In this document: positions 31,835-61,920 of the stretch, piece after piece | Layout of the letters: every line of letters begins with the position of its first letter | How positions within the stretch are numbered: position 1 is the stretch's first letter | NCBI RefSeq assembly: GCF_000633635.1 | Contig: NZ_AYPQ01000001.1 | Span: 716,820 to 780,819 of the forward strand | Direction: 5' to 3' | Length of the DNA: 64,000 nt | Source: Enterococcus crotali | GTDB lineage: Bacteria > Bacillota > Bacilli > Lactobacillales > Enterococcaceae | Notes under the pieces: model-generated | What the model was told of the DNA's origin: nothing | Database searches by the model: none | Seen by the model: only the letters and a program-made list of their open reading frames with translations | Translations under genes and position numbers: made by a program

Positions 31835-32683
31835 TTATACTCCGTTGATTGGATGGACCGCATAATTTCCGAATATTTTAACTGTCCCACCCATTAAACA
31901 TATTTCTTCTAGTGCATTTTCTATTAACTGTTGTGGCTTTTGACCATTGATATCAATCAAAAAGAAGTATTCTCCTAAAGTTGTTTTCAATGGACGAGAT
32001 TCAATCTTGCTTAAATCAATTTCTCGCCAACTGAACACAGACAGTGCTTTATGCAAAGCTCCTGGCATATTATTTGGCATCGTTAAGGCCAAAGTCAGCT
32101 TTTGATCACTTGCTTGGATCGGCAGCTCAACTTTTTCAGCACCAATCACCCAAAACCGTGTCTGATTGATTGCAACATCTTGAATATCTTTTCCTACGAT
32201 TTCAAGATCATACGTCTTTGCAGATAGTTTTGGTGCAATTGCGGCAATTTTTTGATCTGGATGATTCGCAACAAAACTTGCTGCATAAGCAGTCGATGGT
32301 GTCGCTTCAAGGTCCGCCATTGGAAAGTGTTGACGAATAAATTCTTGAGATTGCGCTAACGCTTGTGGATGCGATAGAATTTTTGTTGTTGCGAGCCAAG
32401 TTTCTTTGTTGTTTTGTGCTACCATTAATTGCTGGTAGATTGGCAAAACAATTTCTGCTCCCACTGGAATTGATGTTTGGTGGAAAAGATAATCGACGGT
32501 TGTATTGACAGAACCTTCGATTGTATTTTCAATTGGAACAACGCCTAGATCAACCTCACCAAACTCAACCCCTTTGATGCAGGCTGGAATTGAATGATAA
32601 GAGAACAATTCTTCATTTGGGAAAGCTGTTTTTGCGGCATTATGCGTAAAAGAAGCTTCTGGTCCTAAAAAACCGACTTTCAT
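31835..32683 (-). CDS. pheA: Prephenate dehydratase with ACT domain
   Basis: PheA converts prephenate to phenylpyruvate, the committed step to phenylalanine. The 282-residue monofunctional enzyme has the catalytic domain at about 1-180, with VPIENTIEGSVNTTVDYLF and the conserved NQTRFWVIG. The ACT domain at about 190-275 has the phenylalanine-binding GALHKALSVF and ESRPLK motifs. Feedback inhibition by Phe is therefore expected. There is no chorismate mutase domain. It is the last gene of the operon, nine bases after aroK. Confidence 0.95.
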   Translation of the reverse strand: MKVGFLGPEASFTHNAAKTAFPNEELFSYHSIPACIKGVEFGEVDLGVVPIENTIEGSVNTTVDYLFHQTSIPVGAEIVLPIYQQLMVAQNNKETWLATTKILSHPQALAQSQEFIRQHFPMADLEATPSTAYAASFVANHPDQKIAAIAPKLSAKTYDLEIVGKDIQDVAINQTRFWVIGAEKVELPIQASDQKLTLALTMPNNMPGALHKALSVFSWREIDLSKIESRPLKTTLGEYFFLIDINGQKPQQLIENALEEICLMGGTVKIFGNYAVHPINGV

Positions 32684-32691
32684 TAGCTCAC

Positions 32692-33195
32692 CTACTTTAT
32701 ATTCTCTAAAATTTCATATGCGATTTCTTCAGGTGTTCGGTCATCTGTATCTACTATTAAACTGGCACTTTCCTCATAAAAAGGAATCCGCGGTTCAAAA
32801 ACATGCCTGATTTCCTCCGGAGATTTTGAAACGACTAGTGGTCTGACTGTAGTGTGATCATGTTTTAGTCTTGGTATAAAAACTTCTGGCTTAGTTTGTA
32901 AATACACAACAGGTGCCATTTGTTTTAAAAGTGACCTATTTTCTGCCCGCATGACGATACCGCCACCAGTTGAGACAACTTGGTTATGATTTAGATAGCG
33001 TTTTAAGACGTCTGTTTCTCTTTCTCTGAAAGCTTCTTCTCCATGTAAATCAAAATATTCTTGGATCGTCATACCAATTTCTTCAACGATTTTATCATCA
33101 AAGTCGATGTGCTCCATACCAGTTTTTTCTGAAAGCAATTTTCCGACTGTCGTTTTCCCTGCTCCCATAAAACCAATTAAAATAATCCCCTTCAT
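32692..33195 (-). CDS. aroK: Shikimate kinase
   Basis: AroK phosphorylates shikimate with ATP, the fifth step of the pathway. The 167-residue P-loop protein has GFMGAGKTTVGKLL (Walker A), the shikimate-binding DFDDKI and ERETDVL regions, and the Gly-rich STGGGIV. The lid Arg is in the DHTTVRPL region. Its length is normal for the family. It lies between aroA and pheA with gaps of 14 and 8 bases. Confidence 0.95.
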   Translation of the reverse strand: MKGIILIGFMGAGKTTVGKLLSEKTGMEHIDFDDKIVEEIGMTIQEYFDLHGEEAFRERETDVLKRYLNHNQVVSTGGGIVMRAENRSLLKQMAPVVYLQTKPEVFIPRLKHDHTTVRPLVVSKSPEEIRHVFEPRIPFYEESASLIVDTDDRTPEEIAYEILENIK

Positions 33196-33209
33196 CTTTG
33201 TTCCTCCAT

Positions 33210-34535
<1,326 letters not shown>

Positions 34536-34618
34536 CTATAAAACATTTGGACATCCGTACTGAAATATGCTTTGCTTCGTTGCTAATTGACATTTTTCTA
34601 AAACCGAACCCGCCAACC

Positions 34619-35716
34619 TTACTTTTCATAACACAAATAATCGGTTTCTTTTTCAAGTATTTCTTTTGCTTTCTCTAAGTCTTCCTGACGTTTAAACGTC
34701 AACTGTAAAATACCGTAAATATCTTCTCGAGTTTCAAGAATTTTCAAATTAATCAGTGAAAGTTTTGCCTTACCAAGTAATCCTGTAATTTCGGCAATCA
34801 CACCAGGAACATCAGGTACATCTACGAACAAGTCATGAAACGCTGGTATTGCACCTTCTTTGTGAACGGGCATTTGATTTCTCGTTTCCTTTGCATCATA
34901 AAAAAATTGAAAAATCGCTTCTTTATTTTCACTTTGAATCCACTCTGAAACTTGATTCATTTCTGTTTGCCACGCATTCATTAATTCTATTAACGCTTCT
35001 TTATTACTTAACAATATATCAGTCCACATTTGCGGATCAGATGAAGCAATACGCGTAATATCACGAAATCCTCCAGCTGCTAATTGACGTGAACGTGGGT
35101 GCTCTTCGTTGAAAACCTTACTTTGATTAACTAAACCTGCTGCAATAATATGAGGCAAATGACTGAGCATTCCTGTAATTTGATCATGTTCTTCAGCTGT
35201 AAGAACTACAAATTTTGCTCTAGTACCTTGTAATAATCGTTGCAGCTCATTTACTTGTCGCTTTTTTTCCGGCTTTGATGAAGTCAAAATATAGTAGGCA
35301 TTCTCAAATAAATTTTCATCTGCTGCAGTCACACCTGACTTATGCGAGCCGGCCATGGGATGTCCGCCAATAAAGGTTTCTAGACCAGCCATTTGAGCAG
35401 CTGTTATGATTTCAAGTTTCGTACTGCCCACATCAGAAATAATGACTTCTTTTTTTAATGGCAATGTACCCAATAACATCAACTGCTCAAGCATACTCTT
35501 AACGGGTGTGCATAGAAAAATCACGTCTGCTTGAACAGCTGCAGCCTCTATGGATAAACCTCTTTCATCGATAATTTGCCGTTTTAGTGCAAAATCTTCA
35601 GATGCTTCTAAATGATCGATCCCAATAATTGTGACAGATGGATGTTGTTTTTTTATACATAATGCTAATGAACTGCCGATCAAGCCTAGACCGATAATCA
35701 AAACTTTCTTATTCAT
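34619..35716 (-). CDS. tyrA: Prephenate dehydrogenase with C-terminal ACT domain
   Basis: TyrA oxidises prephenate to 4-hydroxyphenylpyruvate with NAD+, the committed step to tyrosine. The 365-residue protein has an N-terminal Rossmann motif (IIGLGLIGSSLAL), then IGGHPMAGSHKSG and LSHLPHIIAAGLVNQ, with conserved His residues. An ACT domain covers about 293-365 (VDVPDVPGVIAEITGLLG), so tyrosine feedback is likely. It lies 29 bases downstream of aroC in the aro operon. Confidence 0.95.
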   Translation of the reverse strand: MNKKVLIIGLGLIGSSLALCIKKQHPSVTIIGIDHLEASEDFALKRQIIDERGLSIEAAAVQADVIFLCTPVKSMLEQLMLLGTLPLKKEVIISDVGSTKLEIITAAQMAGLETFIGGHPMAGSHKSGVTAADENLFENAYYILTSSKPEKKRQVNELQRLLQGTRAKFVVLTAEEHDQITGMLSHLPHIIAAGLVNQSKVFNEEHPRSRQLAAGGFRDITRIASSDPQMWTDILLSNKEALIELMNAWQTEMNQVSEWIQSENKEAIFQFFYDAKETRNQMPVHKEGAIPAFHDLFVDVPDVPGVIAEITGLLGKAKLSLINLKILETREDIYGILQLTFKRQEDLEKAKEILEKETDYLCYEK

Positions 35717-35745
35717 TCCGCTTCACTCTCCATTTTTAGTTTGCA

Positions 35746-36912
35746 TTAAAACGTTTGAGTATAGCGACGGTAAGACTCTACTTCTTCTTTCATTTGTTCA
35801 AAAGCATCACTGCCGAATTTTTCCAGCATCGCTTGGGCAACTTCTGTTGCTACAACCGCTTCACAAACCACACTTGCAGCTGGAACCGCTGTACTATCAG
35901 ACCGTTCCACACTAGCTTTATAGGGTTCTTTTGTATCGATATTTACACTTTGCAATGGTTTATACAACGTCGGGATAGGTTTCATCACACCCCTAACAAT
36001 AATTGGCATGCCATTTGTCATACCACCTTCAAAACCGCCTAGATTATTTGATGTTCTGGTATAGCCCGTTTTTTTATCCCAAACAATCTCATCCATAACT
36101 TGACTACCTGGTTTAAAGCCCATTTCAAAACCAATCCCAAATTCAACACCTTTAAAAGCATTGATACTTGTTACTGCCTGAGCGATTTTTGCATCGAGTT
36201 TGCGATCCCATTGGACATAGCTACCTAGACCAATCGGGACACCACCGACAACAACTTCAACCACGCCACCAATCGTATCGCCATTTTTCTTGGTCTTATC
36301 AATTAAATCGCGAATGTCTTGTTCTACTGAGGGATCAAGTACACGAACATCTGAATTTTCTGAGCGCTCTTGAATCTCCTTAACGGTTAAATTATCAGGA
36401 ATTTCTGCTTTGATCCCACCTAATATTGCAACATGTCCTGCTACTTCTATTTCTAATTCCTTCAATAGCTTTTTAGCAACTGCACCAATAGCAACACGCA
36501 TCGTCGTTTCTCTCGCTGAAGAACGTTCTAATACATTTCTCAAATCATCGTGCTGATATTTGATTCCGCCAACAAGATCTGCATGTCCTGGACGTGGTTT
36601 ATTGACTCGGCGGATCTTCTTCTCTTTCTCTGTGACCTCTTCAATCGACATTACAGACGTCCAGTTTTTCCAGTCCTTATTTTCAACAACAAGTGTGACT
36701 GGCGACCCTAATGTTTTTCCGTGACGAATACCAGAAGTAATTCTTACTTGGTCTTTTTCGATCAACATTCTACCGCCACGCCCATAACCACCTTGTCTTC
36801 TTGCTAACTCCAAGTTAATGTCTTCTGGTGATAAAGGCAATCCTGCTGGTAATCCTTCTATAATTGCTGTTAATTCTGGTCCATGTGATTCTCCCGCTGT
36901 AATAAAACGCAT
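35746..36912 (-). CDS. aroC: Chorismate synthase
   Basis: AroC makes chorismate from EPSP using reduced FMN, which is not consumed. The 388-residue protein begins [20 protein letters not shown], carrying the family signature. It also has [39 protein letters not shown] and [15 protein letters not shown]. These contain the conserved His and Arg residues of the active site. The length is normal for the large-type bacterial enzyme. It lies 11 bases downstream of aroB. Confidence 0.96.
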
Positions 36913-36923
36913 ATAAACTCCTC

Positions 36924-37985
36924 CTAGTCTAAATAACTCTTCATTTCTTCAATTGGAACACGAACGATTTTTGCATTGCCAATTGATTCTAACAAAATAA
37001 TATTGATTTTTCCGCCGCGTGCTTTTTTATCATGAGTCAATGCCGTATATAACTGCTCTTGATCCCACTGCTCTGATCTGATCGGTAAATTAAATTTTTG
37101 AATCATTGTGTTTAATTGGTTCGTTGTACCAATTGGCGTCAACATTTTACTTTCCGCAACTCTAGTGATTTGGCTCATCCCGATTGCAACCCCTTCACCA
37201 TGAGTTAAATTACCATAGCCAGCAGTATTCTCTAATGCATGACCGATTGTATGACCAAAGTTAAGCAGTAAACGAACACCATTATCCAGTTCATCTTCTT
37301 CTACAACTTTCCGTTTTATCTTACAACAAGCGGCGATGATCTCCGTTGCATGGATGAGTAAATCATGTTCATCCACCAACCCATCAAGCGTTTGCCATAA
37401 GTCTTTGTCTGCAATTGCAGCAGATTTGATGATTTCAGCGATTCCTTCTCTAACACGTCTTATTTCTAACGTGTTCAATGTATCAGGATCGATTAAAACG
37501 CCGTCCGGCTGAGCAAATGTGCCAACTAGATTTTTGGCTTTAGTCGTGTTAACAGCCGTTTTACCGCCAATACTACTATCAACTTGGGCCAATAAGGTCG
37601 TTGGAACTTGTAAAAAATGTAGTCCTCGCATATAAGTTGAAGCAACGAAACCGGCTAAATCACCAACCACTCCACCGCCTAAAGCAATGATTCCATCACT
37701 TCTTGTCAAACCATTATCTGCCAAAAAATCATAGATTTCAGCTGCTACAGCCAAACTTTTACTCTGTTCACCTGCATCGATTACAAAAGCTGAAACCTCA
37801 AAACCTGCTTCTTCCAAACTTTTAGAAACCTGATTGCCATATAGCGGATGAACGTTTGTATCTGTTATGATCACAATTTTTTGTGGTGACCATAACTCTT
37901 TTACCCAAGTACCAATATTTTTCAATAAGCCTGCTTGAATGCTCAAATCATAAGAATGGTTTGGTAAATTTACCGTGAGTTTCAT
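36924..37985 (-). CDS. aroB: 3-dehydroquinate synthase
   Basis: AroB cyclises DAHP to 3-dehydroquinate, with NAD+ and a divalent metal as cofactors. The 353-residue protein shows [47 protein letters not shown], and the metal-binding Glu/His set in [19 protein letters not shown] and [10 protein letters not shown]. All key residues appear present. A degenerate relative lies at 47602-48648 in this window. It follows aroF by about 70 bases. Confidence 0.96.
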
Positions 37986-38056
37986 TTATTCCAACTCCTA
38001 TTTTTTATTAAAGAGAAAACACTAACCTTCTGTTAACATTTATTTTAAAGAGCCCA

Positions 38057-39079
38057 TTACCCTAAAGCGTTGATTTCTTTCATTGCTTTTTCCATAATGT
38101 GAACTTCTTCCATCATACGCATGTAAGTTTTTTCGTTTAACGATTGGGGACCATCAGACCAAGCGTTGACTGGATCTGGATGAATTTCAACAATCAAACC
38201 ATCCGCACCAGAAGCAACACCAGCTCGTGCCATTGGAGGAACAAGATCCCAAATCCCTACGCCATGACTAGGATCAACAATAATTGGAAAATGACTTAAT
38301 TTTTTAATCAATGGAACGGCACTTAGATCAAGTGTATTTCGCGTTGCTGTTTCATATGTGCGAATACCGCGTTCAATAAAAATTACATTGAAGTTACCTT
38401 GTGCAGCGATATATTCGGCTGCATTCAACCACTCATCAATTGTACCAGAAATACCACGCTTTAAGCCAATTGGCTTACCTGTTTTTCCCACTGCTTGTAA
38501 TAATTTAAAGTTTTGCATATTTCTAGCGCCAATTTGTAAAATATCACTGTATTGCGCAATCATATCGATATGGGCCTCATCCATAACCTCTGTAATGACT
38601 TTCATATCAAATTCGTCTGCTGCTTGGCGAATGTATTTTAACCCTTCTTCTTCTAAACCTTGAAAAGCATATGGAGATGTTCTTGGTTTAAAGGCTCCAC
38701 CTCGTAAAACGGTTGCCCCACCTGCTTTAGCAATTCTAGCGCATTCGCGAATTTGATCTAGGCTTTCGATTGAGCATGGTCCTGCCATCATTGTCATACT
38801 ACCATCGCCTATTTTAACGCCATCAACATCGACAACAGTGTTTTCCGGATGAAATTCCCGACTTGTTAATTTGTATGTCAATGAAATTCTAACGGCATTT
38901 TCAACACCATCGTAACTATTGAATGCTACATCCTGCATTTTTCTAGTATCACCAACTAAACCAATGATTGTTTGCTCTTTCCCTTCACTTAAGTGAACTT
39001 CCAGTCCTTCTTTTTTTACTCGTTCGATCACCGATTTAATTTGTGCCTTTGTTGCTTCTGATTTCATAATTACGATCAT
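38057..39079 (-). CDS. aroF: DAHP synthase (type I-beta) with N-terminal regulatory domain
   Basis: The enzyme starts the shikimate pathway by joining PEP and erythrose-4-phosphate. The start is the ATG at 39079, nine bases after AAGGAG. The 340-residue product has a ferredoxin-like N-terminal domain of about 70 residues (IVIMKSEATKAQIKSVIERV). In related enzymes this domain mediates Tyr or Phe inhibition. The barrel shows AGPCSIES, LRGGAFKPRTSPYAFQG, QIGARNMQNF, GKPIGLKRG and DPSHGVG, with the metal-binding Cys, His, Glu and Asp. It is the second gene of the operon. Confidence 0.95.
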   Translation of the reverse strand: MIVIMKSEATKAQIKSVIERVKKEGLEVHLSEGKEQTIIGLVGDTRKMQDVAFNSYDGVENAVRISLTYKLTSREFHPENTVVDVDGVKIGDGSMTMMAGPCSIESLDQIRECARIAKAGGATVLRGGAFKPRTSPYAFQGLEEEGLKYIRQAADEFDMKVITEVMDEAHIDMIAQYSDILQIGARNMQNFKLLQAVGKTGKPIGLKRGISGTIDEWLNAAEYIAAQGNFNVIFIERGIRTYETATRNTLDLSAVPLIKKLSHFPIIVDPSHGVGIWDLVPPMARAGVASGADGLIVEIHPDPVNAWSDGPQSLNEKTYMRMMEEVHIMEKAMKEINALG

Positions 39080-39108
39080 TGTTGTTCTCTCCTTCAATCC
39101 ATTTTAAT

Positions 39109-39978
39109 TTAGTTGTTTTCAATAATTGGTTTTACGATATCTATCGGCATTTCTTGTCCGGTCCATTTTTCAAATGCAGCCGCTCCTTGATAAAGCAGCA
39201 TACCTAAACCATTATTCGTTTTAGCACCACGTAGGCGGGCTTGTTTAAGAAATTCTGTTTCTCTTGGTGTGTAGATAACGTCACAAACAGCTAAGTCTGG
39301 TCTGATGATAGAAAAGTCTTGAATTGGTGTTTGCTCTTCTAGCGGTTTCATGCCCACTCCTGTAGCGTTTAGCAAGAGTGCACTTTCTGCTACATCTGTC
39401 GCTAAGCTATTTTCATCCGATAAATCATGCAACGTTATGACGCAGTTAGTATTATCTGAAATATAGGCTAATTTCTCTTTGATTTTGTCATAGAAATCAT
39501 CTTTTCGATTATACACTGTTATTTCTTTGACACCATCTAAGGCCGCTTGAACAATGATTGCTGTAGCCGCACCACCTGCTCCAATGATCGTCATTTTTTT
39601 ACCAACGATATCCACAGAAAGATCTTGTAAGCTTCGCATAAACCCAGTACCATCGGTGTTATGTCCAGTTAACTTACCATGATCATTAGTAATAGTGTTG
39701 ACTGCCCCAATCAAACGAGCTGCCTCACTTAACTCATCCATATACTCCACAGCTAAGATTTTATTTGGCATGGAAAGGTTTGCACCCATCATATCCAAAT
39801 TTCTGATTGAATCGATTGCTTGTTTTAACCCCTCTGTTCCCACTTCAAAAGCAAGATATACTGCGTCAATCCCCAACGCTTGAAAAGCTGTATTATGAAT
39901 CATTGGTGAAACACTGTGACGAATCGGTGTAGCGAATAATGCAGCCAGTCTCGTATAGCCTGTAATCTGATTTTCCAT
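39109..39978 (-). CDS. aroE: Shikimate dehydrogenase
   Basis: AroE reduces 3-dehydroshikimate to shikimate with NADPH. The 289-residue protein has PIRHSVSPMIHN (substrate binding), NLSMPNK (catalytic Lys), GAVNTI, GHNTDGTGF (catalytic Asp) and the Rossmann GAGGAATAI. QGAAAFEKWTG near the C-terminus is also conserved. It is the first gene of the operon, 33 bases after the attenuator terminator. GAGGAGG sits seven bases before the ATG. No aroD is present in the operon, so dehydroquinate dehydratase must be encoded elsewhere. Confidence 0.95.
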   Translation of the reverse strand: MENQITGYTRLAALFATPIRHSVSPMIHNTAFQALGIDAVYLAFEVGTEGLKQAIDSIRNLDMMGANLSMPNKILAVEYMDELSEAARLIGAVNTITNDHGKLTGHNTDGTGFMRSLQDLSVDIVGKKMTIIGAGGAATAIIVQAALDGVKEITVYNRKDDFYDKIKEKLAYISDNTNCVITLHDLSDENSLATDVAESALLLNATGVGMKPLEEQTPIQDFSIIRPDLAVCDVIYTPRETEFLKQARLRGAKTNNGLGMLLYQGAAAFEKWTGQEMPIDIVKPIIENN

Positions 39979-40010: not shown

Positions 40011-40060
40011 ACAAAAAGGTGTTCACGTAGATTTTCAGAAAGAAATCTACAGTGAACACC
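40011..40060 (-). terminator. Attenuator terminator in the aro operon leader
   Basis: On the minus strand, GGTGTTCAC-GTAGATTT (from 40060) pairs with AAATCTACGTGAACACC (ending at 40018), and TTTTTGTTT follows. This is a strong intrinsic terminator 33 bases before the aroE start. It can act as terminator only when its 5' arm is not captured by the upstream antiterminator segment. Confidence 0.9.
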
Positions 40061-40083
40061 TCACAAAAAATAGGTAATATAAA

Positions 40084-40115
40084 AGCCACTATAGATTTTC
40101 TCATCTACGCGGCTG
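40084..40115 (-). promoter_or_regulatory. Anti-antiterminator / antiterminator hairpin of the aro leader
   Basis: On the minus strand, AGCCGCGTAGAT (from 40114) pairs with ATCTATAGTGGCT (ending at 40084). The second arm, AAATCTATAGTG, is also complementary to CACTGTAGATTT in the 5' arm of the terminator, with only one G-U pair. The two foldings exclude each other, as in classical attenuators. Confidence 0.75.
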
Positions 40116-40191
40116 AAAGTCATCTCAAAATCCCCTAGCCATCATAGATACAAACTTGCTAGTCTGCATCCATAATGTTATGAATACAAAC

Positions 40192-40254
40192 TCATCTAAA
40201 ATAGCTAAAGTAATAATTATTCAGTTGTATATGGTTATGCTTCATGATTGTCAT
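40192..40254 (-). CDS. Aromatic-rich leader peptide of the aro operon
   Basis: A 20-codon ORF begins at an ATG at 40254, nine bases after GGAG, within the first 50 bases of the predicted transcript. It ends with TGA at 40192. The C-terminal nine residues are NNYYFSYFR, so five of seven codons just before the end are Tyr or Phe. It precedes the antiterminator/terminator hairpins and the operon for Tyr and Phe synthesis. This is the organisation of transcription-attenuation leader peptides such as pheL or trpL. It is too short for standard gene finders. I know of no named homologue. Confidence 0.75.
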   Translation of the reverse strand: MTIMKHNHIQLNNYYFSYFR

Positions 40255-40294
40255 ATGAATCACTCCGTAACTGATTTATTTAAGAATTGTTCTC

Positions 40295-40323
40295 AGTATA
40301 TACCTACTAAAACTCAGTGTCAA
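40295..40323 (-). promoter_or_regulatory. aro operon promoter
   Basis: On the minus strand TTGACA (40323-40318), a 17-base spacer and TATACT (40300-40295) form a near-consensus sigma-A promoter. The expected start near 40288 gives a leader of about 310 bases before aroE. Confidence 0.88.
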
Positions 40324-40378: not shown

Positions 40379-41359
40379 CTACTCCCTAATTTTTAAAATG
40401 ATTTTCCCTTTATTTTTGTTTGCAGCCATCCGTTGATGAGCCTCTTCTACATCTTCAAGTTTAAATGTAGAATCGATAATTGGTTTTAGTTTGTTTGTAG
40501 CAAATAGTTTGTTTGTCTTTACTGAAAATTCTCTTGTCAGCTCAGCCTTGTATGCATCACTTCGTGGAGTGAGCAACGTTCCTTCAACTGTGACTCTTTT
40601 TTGCAATAATGTCATCAGATCAACTTTTGGAACAACCGAACCGCCTAGAATACCTATAAGAATGAAACGACCATCGACAGCAATACTTGCTAAATTTTGC
40701 TCCCAATAGGAAGCTCCGATAAAATCTAAAATCACATTGACGCCTTGATCGTTTGTTTCATGAAGAATCCTTTTGCTAAAGTCCTCTTCATGATAGTTAA
40801 TCAGAACATCCGCACCCAATTTCTGACATAGCTCAAGTTTATCTGGCGAACTTGCAGTGACGAATATTTTAGCATCAGTTAATTGTTTAACCAACTGAAT
40901 CGCAGCTGTTCCTACTCCACTAGCGCCAGCATGAATCAATACTGACTCTGTCTCCTTTAATTTCCCTAGCCAAAATAAGGTTTGATACGCAGTAAGAAAG
41001 ACCTCAGGAATTGCAGCGCCTTCTTCAAATGTTAACGATTCAGATAACGGCATGGCATTTCCAACTTGCATCACAGCATATTCCGCATAACCACCGCCAT
41101 TTACAAGTCCCATGACGCGTGTACCACAAGGAAACTGTAGCGAATCACTCTCTATAACTGTTCCAGAAACTTCAACACCTAAAATCGGGTTTCCTTTAGG
41201 TAAACCCCCTGTTTCTTTAGCAACTAAATCAGTTCGATTGACCGCAGCAGCAGAAACTTTGATCAGTAACTCGCCCTTTTTTCTAATTGGTACCCCTACC
41301 TCTTTTTTCACCTCTAAACTCGCGTGATTTGCATTAAATGACAATTCAACTGCTTTCAT
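40379..41359 (-). CDS. Zinc-independent quinone oxidoreductase / MDR family NAD(P)H dehydrogenase
   Basis: The 326-residue protein is a medium-chain reductase. It has NRTDLVAKETGGLPKGNPILGVEVSG (in part the substrate region), the nucleotide-binding AGASGVGTAAIQL near residue 145, and GILGGSVVPKVDL in the PIG3-like pattern. It lacks the Cys/His set of the catalytic and structural zinc ions, so quinone or enone reduction with NADPH is more likely than alcohol oxidation. Its gene ends just upstream of the aro promoter and has no obvious terminator. Physiological substrate unknown. Confidence 0.8.
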   Translation of the reverse strand: MKAVELSFNANHASLEVKKEVGVPIRKKGELLIKVSAAAVNRTDLVAKETGGLPKGNPILGVEVSGTVIESDSLQFPCGTRVMGLVNGGGYAEYAVMQVGNAMPLSESLTFEEGAAIPEVFLTAYQTLFWLGKLKETESVLIHAGASGVGTAAIQLVKQLTDAKIFVTASSPDKLELCQKLGADVLINYHEEDFSKRILHETNDQGVNVILDFIGASYWEQNLASIAVDGRFILIGILGGSVVPKVDLMTLLQKRVTVEGTLLTPRSDAYKAELTREFSVKTNKLFATNKLKPIIDSTFKLEDVEEAHQRMAANKNKGKIILKIRE

Positions 41360-61789: not shown

Positions 61790-61920
61790 CTCTATCTTCT
61801 TTATCCAGACTTTACTGTCGGTATTGGAATTTCACCAATTCAGCCACTTCAAATGAAGTAGGTCGTGGACTATAACCACCGGTCGGGAATTGCACCCTGC
61901 CCCTGAAGACGAACCTTTAT
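61790..61920 (-). promoter_or_regulatory. FMN riboswitch (RFN element)
   Basis: On the minus strand the aptamer core is clear: TTCAGGGGCAGGGTG, then GACCGGTGGT with AGTCCACGACC. GGTGAAATTCCAATACCGACAGT follows in two parts, then AAGTCTGGATAAAGAAGA. FMN binding should favour the downstream terminator and reduce ribU expression. Confidence 0.95.

Follow-up and report, generated by a model that had tools for sequence, protein, structure and literature searches.

A Tyr/Phe leader peptide and a predicted eight-segment RNA relay precede the aromatic amino acid operon of Enterococcus crotali

The aromatic amino acid operon of Enterococcus crotali is preceded by a leader that, with a probability that we put at about 80%, acts as a ribosome-mediated transcription attenuator, reading the charging of Tyr- and Phe-tRNA through a relay of eight RNA segments. 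The leader lies in the 64,000-nucleotide stretch of contig NZ_AYPQ01000001.1 that was analyzed (hereafter, "the window", whose coordinates are used throughout); all of its features, and the operon, are on the minus strand. A first-pass annotation had proposed a Tyr/Phe leader-peptide attenuator at this position. The open reading frame (ORF), its codons, and the alternative pairing have been upheld, but the simple two-stem model gave way to a relay of segments designated A, S1, S2, B, C, D, E, and F. Comparison of the leader with those of its relatives shows the ORF, the sensor codons, the helices, their geometry, and the link between codons and downstream genes.

Transcription of the aroE leader is predicted to start at approximately 40288. 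The near-consensus promoter claimed earlier was found again as a sigma-70-type element, TTGACA-17-TATACT (40323-40295), with 11 of 12 consensus matches; it was the top of nine promoter-like sites in a promoter scan in which shuffled sequences yield 7.6. Under a looser rule, a -35/-10 pair was present in 29 of 30 relatives' leaders, the region lying beyond the extract in the 30th (L038). The ORF (40254-40192) has 20 codons, starts with ATG, and encodes MTIMKHNHIQLNNYYFSYFR followed by a stop codon; as had been claimed, it has a ribosome site, the Shine-Dalgarno sequence GGAG (40263-40266), 8 nt 5' of the ATG and also found in relatives. The sensor codons TAT TAC TTT AGC TAT TTT (Y Y F S Y F) occupy 40198-40215, and the last Tyr codon has the same place as the last Trp codon in the Trp leaders described below. 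Conservation of the Tyr/Phe codons had been named as a check on the model, and indeed the ORF ends in [YF]YFSYFR in 30 of 30 aroE leaders (the best 30; the start of the ORF of L038 is beyond its extract). A QLN sequence at codons -5 to -3 before the sensor is common to Tyr/Phe leaders and many Trp leaders, with several Leu codons in use; in the window, a CAGUU near the ribosome site is able to pair with an AACUG in the QLN region.

The first gene of the operon is aroE, encoding shikimate dehydrogenase (39109-39978; TIGR00507, 221.7 bits against a cut-off of 200.2). It is followed by the genes for DAHP synthase, aroB, aroC, tyrA, aroA, aroK, and pheA (31835-39097; NCBIfam names). The operon genes exceed curated cut-offs except for the shikimate kinase gene (aroK), whose best model scored below its own. 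Together they cover the common pathway and the Tyr and Phe branches, and no trp gene is among the operon genes from aroE to pheA (31835-39978). A quinone oxidoreductase gene of the PIG3 family (40379-41359) lies on the other side of the leader from aroE. Elsewhere, a second aroE-like gene (C1:827625-828488, minus strand; 53% identical) is found about 71 kb away in the same genome, and the window holds an FMN riboswitch (RF00050, 100.9 bits) at 61790-61914 on the minus strand.

The leader is strongly structured: its folding energy of -84 kcal/mol was equaled by none of 200 shuffled sequences, for which the value is -54.2 kcal/mol (z -6.75). In agreement with the first-pass annotation, which saw no T-box motif, none was listed in a gathering-level Rfam scan of the window or in a relaxed scan of the leader; the matches to PK-repZ and to a miRNA in the latter were below cut-off and were taken as chance. 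The strong terminator that had been described before aroE was borne out by folding. A simple terminator scan omits it and gives one other site, where 1.4 were expected; a bulge is probably the reason that the scan passes over it.

The segments were delimited by eye and from duplex energies. Segment A (40192-40207) lies within the end of the ORF and has B as its partner; S1 (40178-40191) is immediately 3' of the stop codon and pairs with S2; S2 (40161-40175) pairs with S1 or with B; and B, which is also S3 (40136-40156), has A, S2, or C as a partner. Segments C (40114-40103) and D (40096-40084) are the 5' and 3' arms of a first terminator-like hairpin that is followed by the T-rich stretch TTTTATATT. 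Segment E (40061-40043) is the 5' arm of the second, strong terminator and has D as its alternative partner, and F (40034-40017), with TTTTT, is the 3' arm, the whole E/F element spanning 40012-40061. The duplex energies in the window (in kcal/mol) are -14.3 for A:B, -15.7 for S1:S2, -16.7 for S2:S3, -14.4 for B:C, -13.5 for C:D, and -23.9 for E:F, with A:D also at -11.8; the complementarity noted earlier between the 3' arm of the first hairpin and the 5' arm of the terminator corresponds to D:E, at -12.9. Three competitions are thereby apparent: A, S2, and C for B; B and D for C; and D and F for E. These pairings would constitute an eight-segment relay in place of the two stems. The hairpin reported at 40084-40115 is present (40114-40084), but it is not the lone switch that it had been taken for; it is itself terminator-like (C:D, then TTTTATATT) and lies downstream of further switch segments. 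Likewise, a CTAGC/GCTAG hairpin (40135-40162) suggested as the relay is lost in relatives such as L022 and L031, and its role falls instead to A:B, S1:S2, S2:B, and B:C. The distance of about 80 bases from the codons to the antiterminator would be bridged by a ribosome that covers A but not S1 when stalled on the last Tyr codon and covers S1 when at the stop codon.

For translation, stalling, the sequence of folding events, and the sense of the response, the scheme that we infer is as follows. With no ribosome on the leader, S1:S2 would form as it is made, followed by A:B; C:D and E:F would then form, and transcription would stop. A shortage of Tyr or Phe would stall the ribosome on the last Tyr/Phe codons, where it would cover A and leave S1 free; S1:S2 could then form, B would be free to pair with C, and the released D would pair with E. 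Neither terminator would form, and the operon would be on. With ample Tyr and Phe, translation would proceed to the stop codon, where the ribosome would cover the 5' part of S1; S2 would be freed to pair with B, C:D and E:F would form, and the operon would be off. There would thus be a double lock on B, closed by A when no ribosome is present and by S2 when translation is complete, and only a ribosome stalled at the sensor codons would give the on state.

The geometry of the leaders comports with this scheme. If the footprint is assumed to end 12 nt beyond the first base of the A-site codon, then in 79 leaders a ribosome stalled on the last Trp or Tyr codon hides 88% of the A helix and 10% of S1, and one that has come to the stop codon hides 72% of S1. 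The cover of A under stall is only 52-67% in two families.

Folding with and without the ribosome, which had been proposed as a further check, yielded the two off states, but gave the on fold only with S1:S2 held in an RNA ending at E. For the window's leader without a ribosome, the pairing probabilities are 0.81 for A:B, 0.95 for C:D, and 0.91 for E:F; with the ribosome at the stop codon, they are 0.99 for S2:S3, 0.95 for C:D, and 0.91 for E:F. The stalled state at equilibrium lacks the on fold: once A is covered, S2:S3 stands at 0.99 versus 0.00 for S1:S2. Equilibrium folding was therefore rejected as a proof of the switch. In the full RNA, E:F remains at about 0.91 in every state, and holding S1:S2 in the stalled state gives 0.39 for B:C and 0.49 for C:D. 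When the RNA is cut at the end of E, A is covered, and S1:S2 is held, B:C rises to 0.77 and C:D is 0.00; the values of B:C in this shortened RNA are 0.01 without a ribosome and 0.19 with one at the stop codon. The shortened RNA contains D:E in each of the three states (0.59 without a ribosome, 0.95 stalled, 0.95 at the stop codon), so this pair cannot by itself distinguish among them. For the model to work, S1:S2 must be kinetically locked, and the decision must be made before F is transcribed. The on state would depend on the order of co-transcriptional folding, and this is the weakest step of the model.

Compensatory changes had also been named as a check. We compared native pairing energies with those of shuffled partners (500 shuffles) in 80 non-redundant leaders, from which L093 was omitted. 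The z-scores were -11.6 for A:B, -17.0 for S1:S2, -11.3 for S2:B, -8.0 for B:C, and -20.1 for C:D, with 0 of 500 shuffles matching in each case. Control pairs in these leaders scored +2.7 (A:S2), +2.2 (A:C), +1.4 (S1:C), +1.2 (S2:C), +0.4 (S1:D), and -1.4 (S1:B). Three further pairs also scored in the 80 leaders (A:D, -6.2; B:D, -4.2; S2:D, -3.0), signals that we read as indirect because D resembles B. When shuffling was confined to families (79 leaders; L093 and L172 omitted), the values were -5.5 for A:B, -10.8 for S1:S2, -8.5 for S2:B, -3.1 for B:C, and -11.0 for C:D, and the remaining pairs fell between -1.7 and +1.4, save A:D at -3.5. D:E scored -11.3 in the 54 leaders with a second terminator.

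The Tyr/Phe leaders alone (n = 82) gave -7.9 for S1:S2, -2.9 for S2:B, -4.5 for B:C, and -5.4 for C:D, and D:E reached -8.4 in 55 of the 82; the second-terminator rule used for this set skipped the window's own copy, among others. The score of A:B in the 82 leaders was 0, the pairing being invariant there. Compensatory change is thus found for the five helices and for D:E, but A:B is constant inside the Tyr/Phe type, and its support comes from comparison across types. Leaders of another class of the phylum (36 distinct ones; see below) gave an A:B score of -7.8, and in the His type both sides of the pairing are exchanged, A and B being altered jointly (CAUCAUCACCAG with CUGGUGAUGAU). L337 was left out of this test, as it had no match to B. 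The pairing is weak in L307 and L324, in which the stop codon is past A, and in L309, L318, and L333.

Leaders of the Tyr/Phe type are common among relatives. All 22 aroE leaders of the window's genome and 21 congeners were read. An aroE match was found in 103 of the family's 105 genomes and the core pattern TWYTTTAGCTAYTTTAGRT in 100 of them, compared to one for the reversed control pattern. A scan of named genomes with the pattern TACTTTAGCTATTTTAGAT gave at least 116 stretches, 80 of them with titles. Among the matches listed, segment B lies downstream in 101 of 116; the 15 stretches without B look like chance and were discarded as leaders. The titled stretches with B, again among the matches listed, belong to Enterococcus, Vagococcus, Tetragenococcus, Lactobacillus, Aerococcus, Alkalibacterium, and uncultured Lactobacillales or Bacillales. 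As judged by N-termini, with examples checked, the Tyr/Phe leaders among these listed matches sit before aroE, DAHP synthase, aroC, aroB-like, aroK, and PF04392-like genes. In one genus of the Enterococcaceae, an aroB-like gene is under its own Tyr/Phe leader (L094, L095, L101-L103); one relative (L188) shows nothing beyond a PF01761 match in 206 aa. The window's genome has at least three relay leaders: that of aroE, the Trp leader L108 (C1:844580-844691), and the Tyr/Phe leader L301 (C9:22523-22726). L108 and L301 each precede a gene for a PF04392-type transporter protein, which suggests that this genome has separate Trp and Tyr/Phe uptake systems.

The Trp leaders coincide with a published RNA motif. 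In the relaxed Rfam scan, the window's leader scored 35.6 bits against RF04312, short of the gathering score (cut-off 59). This trpB motif, which has over 900 representatives, was put forward as a strong candidate for a riboswitch; its authors noted that the right shoulder of P1 contains an antiterminator, and they left room for a classic attenuator (PMC11109978, in the part accessible to us). Its model spans S2, B, C, and D of the relay. It differs from the window's leader in its Trp sensors, as opposed to Tyr/Phe, and in its publication as a riboswitch candidate, with no ORF named in the accessible part of that paper. The best 30 RF04312 loci of the family all have an ORF directly upstream that ends in a Trp motif, e.g. 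SWQNWRR before the stop codon. We assembled 112 loci of the order, comprising these 30, 22 more, and 60 further loci taken from 64 listed non-Enterococcaceae rows (matches listed to an E of about 1.5e-5); from the family, we read the top 30 matches plus 20 selected ones. Of the 112 loci, 109 have upstream a ribosome site together with an ORF that contains Trp among its last 12 residues, while random positions in the same loci (short loci skipped) satisfy the ORF rule in 165/3660 and 85/3660 cases. The three exceptions are L151, whose start codon is lost; L161, in which the ORF is present but its ribosome site is weak; and L165, which scored 48.3 bits and was rejected as a false match. L151 and L165 were omitted from the alignment. 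Loci without a leader reach 37-48 bits, and thus an RF04312 score alone proves nothing; low scores were accordingly dropped as evidence, as 17 loci at 37-46.5 bits comprise seven with a leader and 10 leaderless plain terminators (L091, L092, L096-L100, L105-L107).

Downstream of the 112 loci, a motif rule recognized a TrpX-like binding protein in 86 cases, TrpB in six, and neither in 20, most of which by eye resemble variant TrpX-like proteins. The Trp-leader protein of the window's genome exceeds the NCBI TrpX cut-off (472 vs. 390 bits), which two Tyr/Phe-leader proteins, at 338 and 335 bits, do not reach. Two loci have other neighbors: L069, with the best RF04312 score among the matches listed (86.6 bits), has a group II intron reverse transcriptase downstream (NCBIfam), and the Trp-leader element L141 stands before a gene for a peptide-binding-like lipoprotein that by eye is not TrpX-like.

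Other sensor codons were encountered outside the order. RF04312 matched in five of 398 genomes of a phylum sample: the window's own, one of its order, and L172, L173, and L174, the last two being without a leader. L172 opened a group in another class, probably Clostridia. In its order, 29 of 147 genomes match RF04312 in 44 rows, none over the cut-off, and a short ORF ends near the motif in all 44, although L332 has no recognized ribosome site. Counted by hand, the last codons are rich in His in nine rows, in Leu in seven, and in Phe/Tyr in 28. By sequence, with examples checked, the His leaders precede HisS (eight) or a HisZ-like protein (one); the seven Leu leaders precede one type of Na+ symporter; and the Phe/Tyr leaders precede a second type of Na+ symporter, a LIVCS carrier, or an ABC permease. 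In one row, that of the Phe/Tyr leader L339, the gene past the terminator is by eye that of a group II intron reverse transcriptase. Five leaders (L330, L335, L340, L344, L346) end in VVFNSQFR or a similar sequence before an ABC permease-like gene and have two Phe codons or so. In a sample of the class, 11 of 245 genomes match, accounting for six new His leaders, L172, L324, and three loci without a leader; the two genes checked after the six new His leaders are both HisZ-like, one of them over the cut-off.

Protein trees show that the leader codons track transporter clades. In a tree of 64 PF04392-type proteins, a single branch (100/99) parts the 45 with Trp leaders from the 19 with Tyr/Phe leaders, while shuffled labels need about 16.5 changes. 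For 27 Na+ symporters, the tree accommodates the L, Y, and F labels with two changes, which is the minimum, against a shuffled mean of 11.4; L and Y are single clades, and F is the remainder rather than one clade. Across the W, Y/F, F, Y, L, and H types, then, the sensor codons appear to match the downstream genes.

These leaders could be read differently. In a nascent-peptide arrest of the TnaC kind, free Trp, Tyr, or Phe, sensed through the conserved C-terminal end of the peptide, would arrest the ribosome at the stop codon, S1 would be covered, and the operon would be off; we regard this as improbable. Such an arrest would account for the recurrence of the C-terminal motifs QLN..YFSYFR and WQ[NS]WRR, for the use of several codons for the Leu of QLN (CTG 62, TTG 10, CTA 3, and TTA 3 in 87 Tyr/Phe leaders), and for the fact that a second Trp codon occurs in only 61 of 98 distinct Trp leaders, 37 being without one; its direction would also suit the relay. 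However, the A:B pairing pins the C-terminal codons, and no obvious arrest motif is common to the Trp, His, Leu, and Phe leaders. Nor is there a third-position bias in the codons before the sensor (W, 292/225/243; Y, 3355/3818/3601), where this test thus gives no sign of peptide selection. Both this result and the 37 leaders lacking a second Trp codon weigh against the attenuator as well.

The filing of RF04312 as a strong riboswitch candidate (PMC11109978, accessible part) raises another reading, in which an aromatic amino acid or one of its precursors would be bound directly by the RNA, and the short ORF would have no part in the control. The strong sequence conservation of B would be expected of such an element, but the three partners of B explain it. 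The presence of the ORF at 109 of 112 RF04312 loci, the change of sensor codon with the gene, and the co-variation of A, which is inside the ORF, with B, up to their joint alteration in the His type, render a metabolite riboswitch very unlikely.

A second Rfam family bears on whether the terminated leader is itself the functional product, as a trans-acting small RNA. RF02863 (sRNA_2410), filed as a small RNA gene, has a consensus structure that contains A:B, S1:S2, and C:D. The window's leader scored 57.6 bits against it (E 4.3e-9), short of the gathering score (cut-off 61), and matches over the cut-off occur in 95 of the 105 genomes of the family. All 10 of the RF02863 loci that were read precede a PF04392-like gene and have a Tyr/Phe leader. 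Nine are from a genus (g4) that we take to be E. faecium and its kin, with leaders ending in PTQLNNF[YF]FSYFR and a stop codon; the tenth, L294, is from the window's genus, likewise with the PF04392-like gene downstream. RF02863 therefore appears to be the Tyr/Phe version of the relay before a transporter gene. It is true that sRNA_2410 of E. faecium was detected by RNA-seq, at 195 nt, and as two transcripts on Northern blots (PMC5593968, in the part accessible to us). Two transcripts would fit two tandem terminators too, however, and the constant position before a transporter gene in the 10 loci makes a small RNA a most doubtful primary function, though the terminated leader could act in trans as well. 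Least credible is a pair of tandem leader peptides, in which a second ORF (40123-40061, minus strand; MTFSRVDEKIYSGFYITYFL and a stop codon) that has an SD-like AGGGG, a Tyr/Phe-rich end just 5' of the terminator, and an overlap with C:D would be translated so that its Tyr/Phe codons control the last terminator; it was dropped, as a like ORF occurs in only 12 of 30 leaders, two of them from another ATG, and the remaining leaders show frame shifts, missing start codons, or premature stops.

The his and trp attenuators of E. coli and Salmonella have codons for the end product, a stalling ribosome, mutually exclusive stems, and an intrinsic terminator, and the his leader forms a chain of six segments. 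The attenuator proposed here shares the sensor-codon leader peptide, the mutually exclusive stems, and the intrinsic terminator. It differs in that the ribosome at the stop codon would work through the extra pair S1/S2, in that the decisive segment B is about 40 nt past the stop codon, and in that many members have two tandem terminators linked by D:E. In Firmicutes, leader-peptide attenuation has already been proposed for His, Leu, and Phe genes: for hisZ/hisS* in bacilli (PMC2965389), with His leaders in Erysipelotrichaceae and Peptostreptococcaceae (PMC9413887), with a Phe uORF before aroF of Acholeplasma (PMC8632094), and with a Leu-rich attenuator peptide of S. aureus (PMC5794164). Like the present leaders, these have a sensor-codon ORF before a terminator; as far as the accessible parts of the four papers go, their descriptions are set apart by the lack of a shared relay or a link to RF04312. 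The accessible part of a ribosome-profiling study of S. pneumoniae (PMC9426450) has nothing on these leaders, and the titles and opening lines of abstracts of the open papers listed do not treat them as attenuators, save for the remark in PMC11109978. Within the literature surveyed, the Tyr/Phe leader of the operon, the double-lock relay, and the linked second terminator seem to be new, as do the interpretation of RF04312 and RF02863 by means of this relay and the swapping of sensor codons from one gene to another.

More broadly, we consider it likely that these leaders form one modular chassis with interchangeable Trp, Tyr/Phe, Phe, Tyr, Leu, and His codons and a double lock on B, spread through the Lactobacillales and part of what are probably Clostridia, that RF04312 and RF02863 are both this system, and that the codons can be used to assign substrates to unassigned transporters. 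If so, the chassis would be a leader-peptide counterpart of the T-box, and leader-peptide attenuation would be widespread in the Lactobacillales, where T-boxes are the expected device. The question posed by RF04312 may have its answer in charged tRNA-Trp, sensed via the ORF, rather than in a ligand, and the RF02863 small RNA would be re-filed as a leader. Substrates of PF04392 and Na+-symporter transporters might be predicted from the codons of their leaders, and the relay would illustrate a way for a ribosome at a stop codon to affect a switch segment about 40 nt away.
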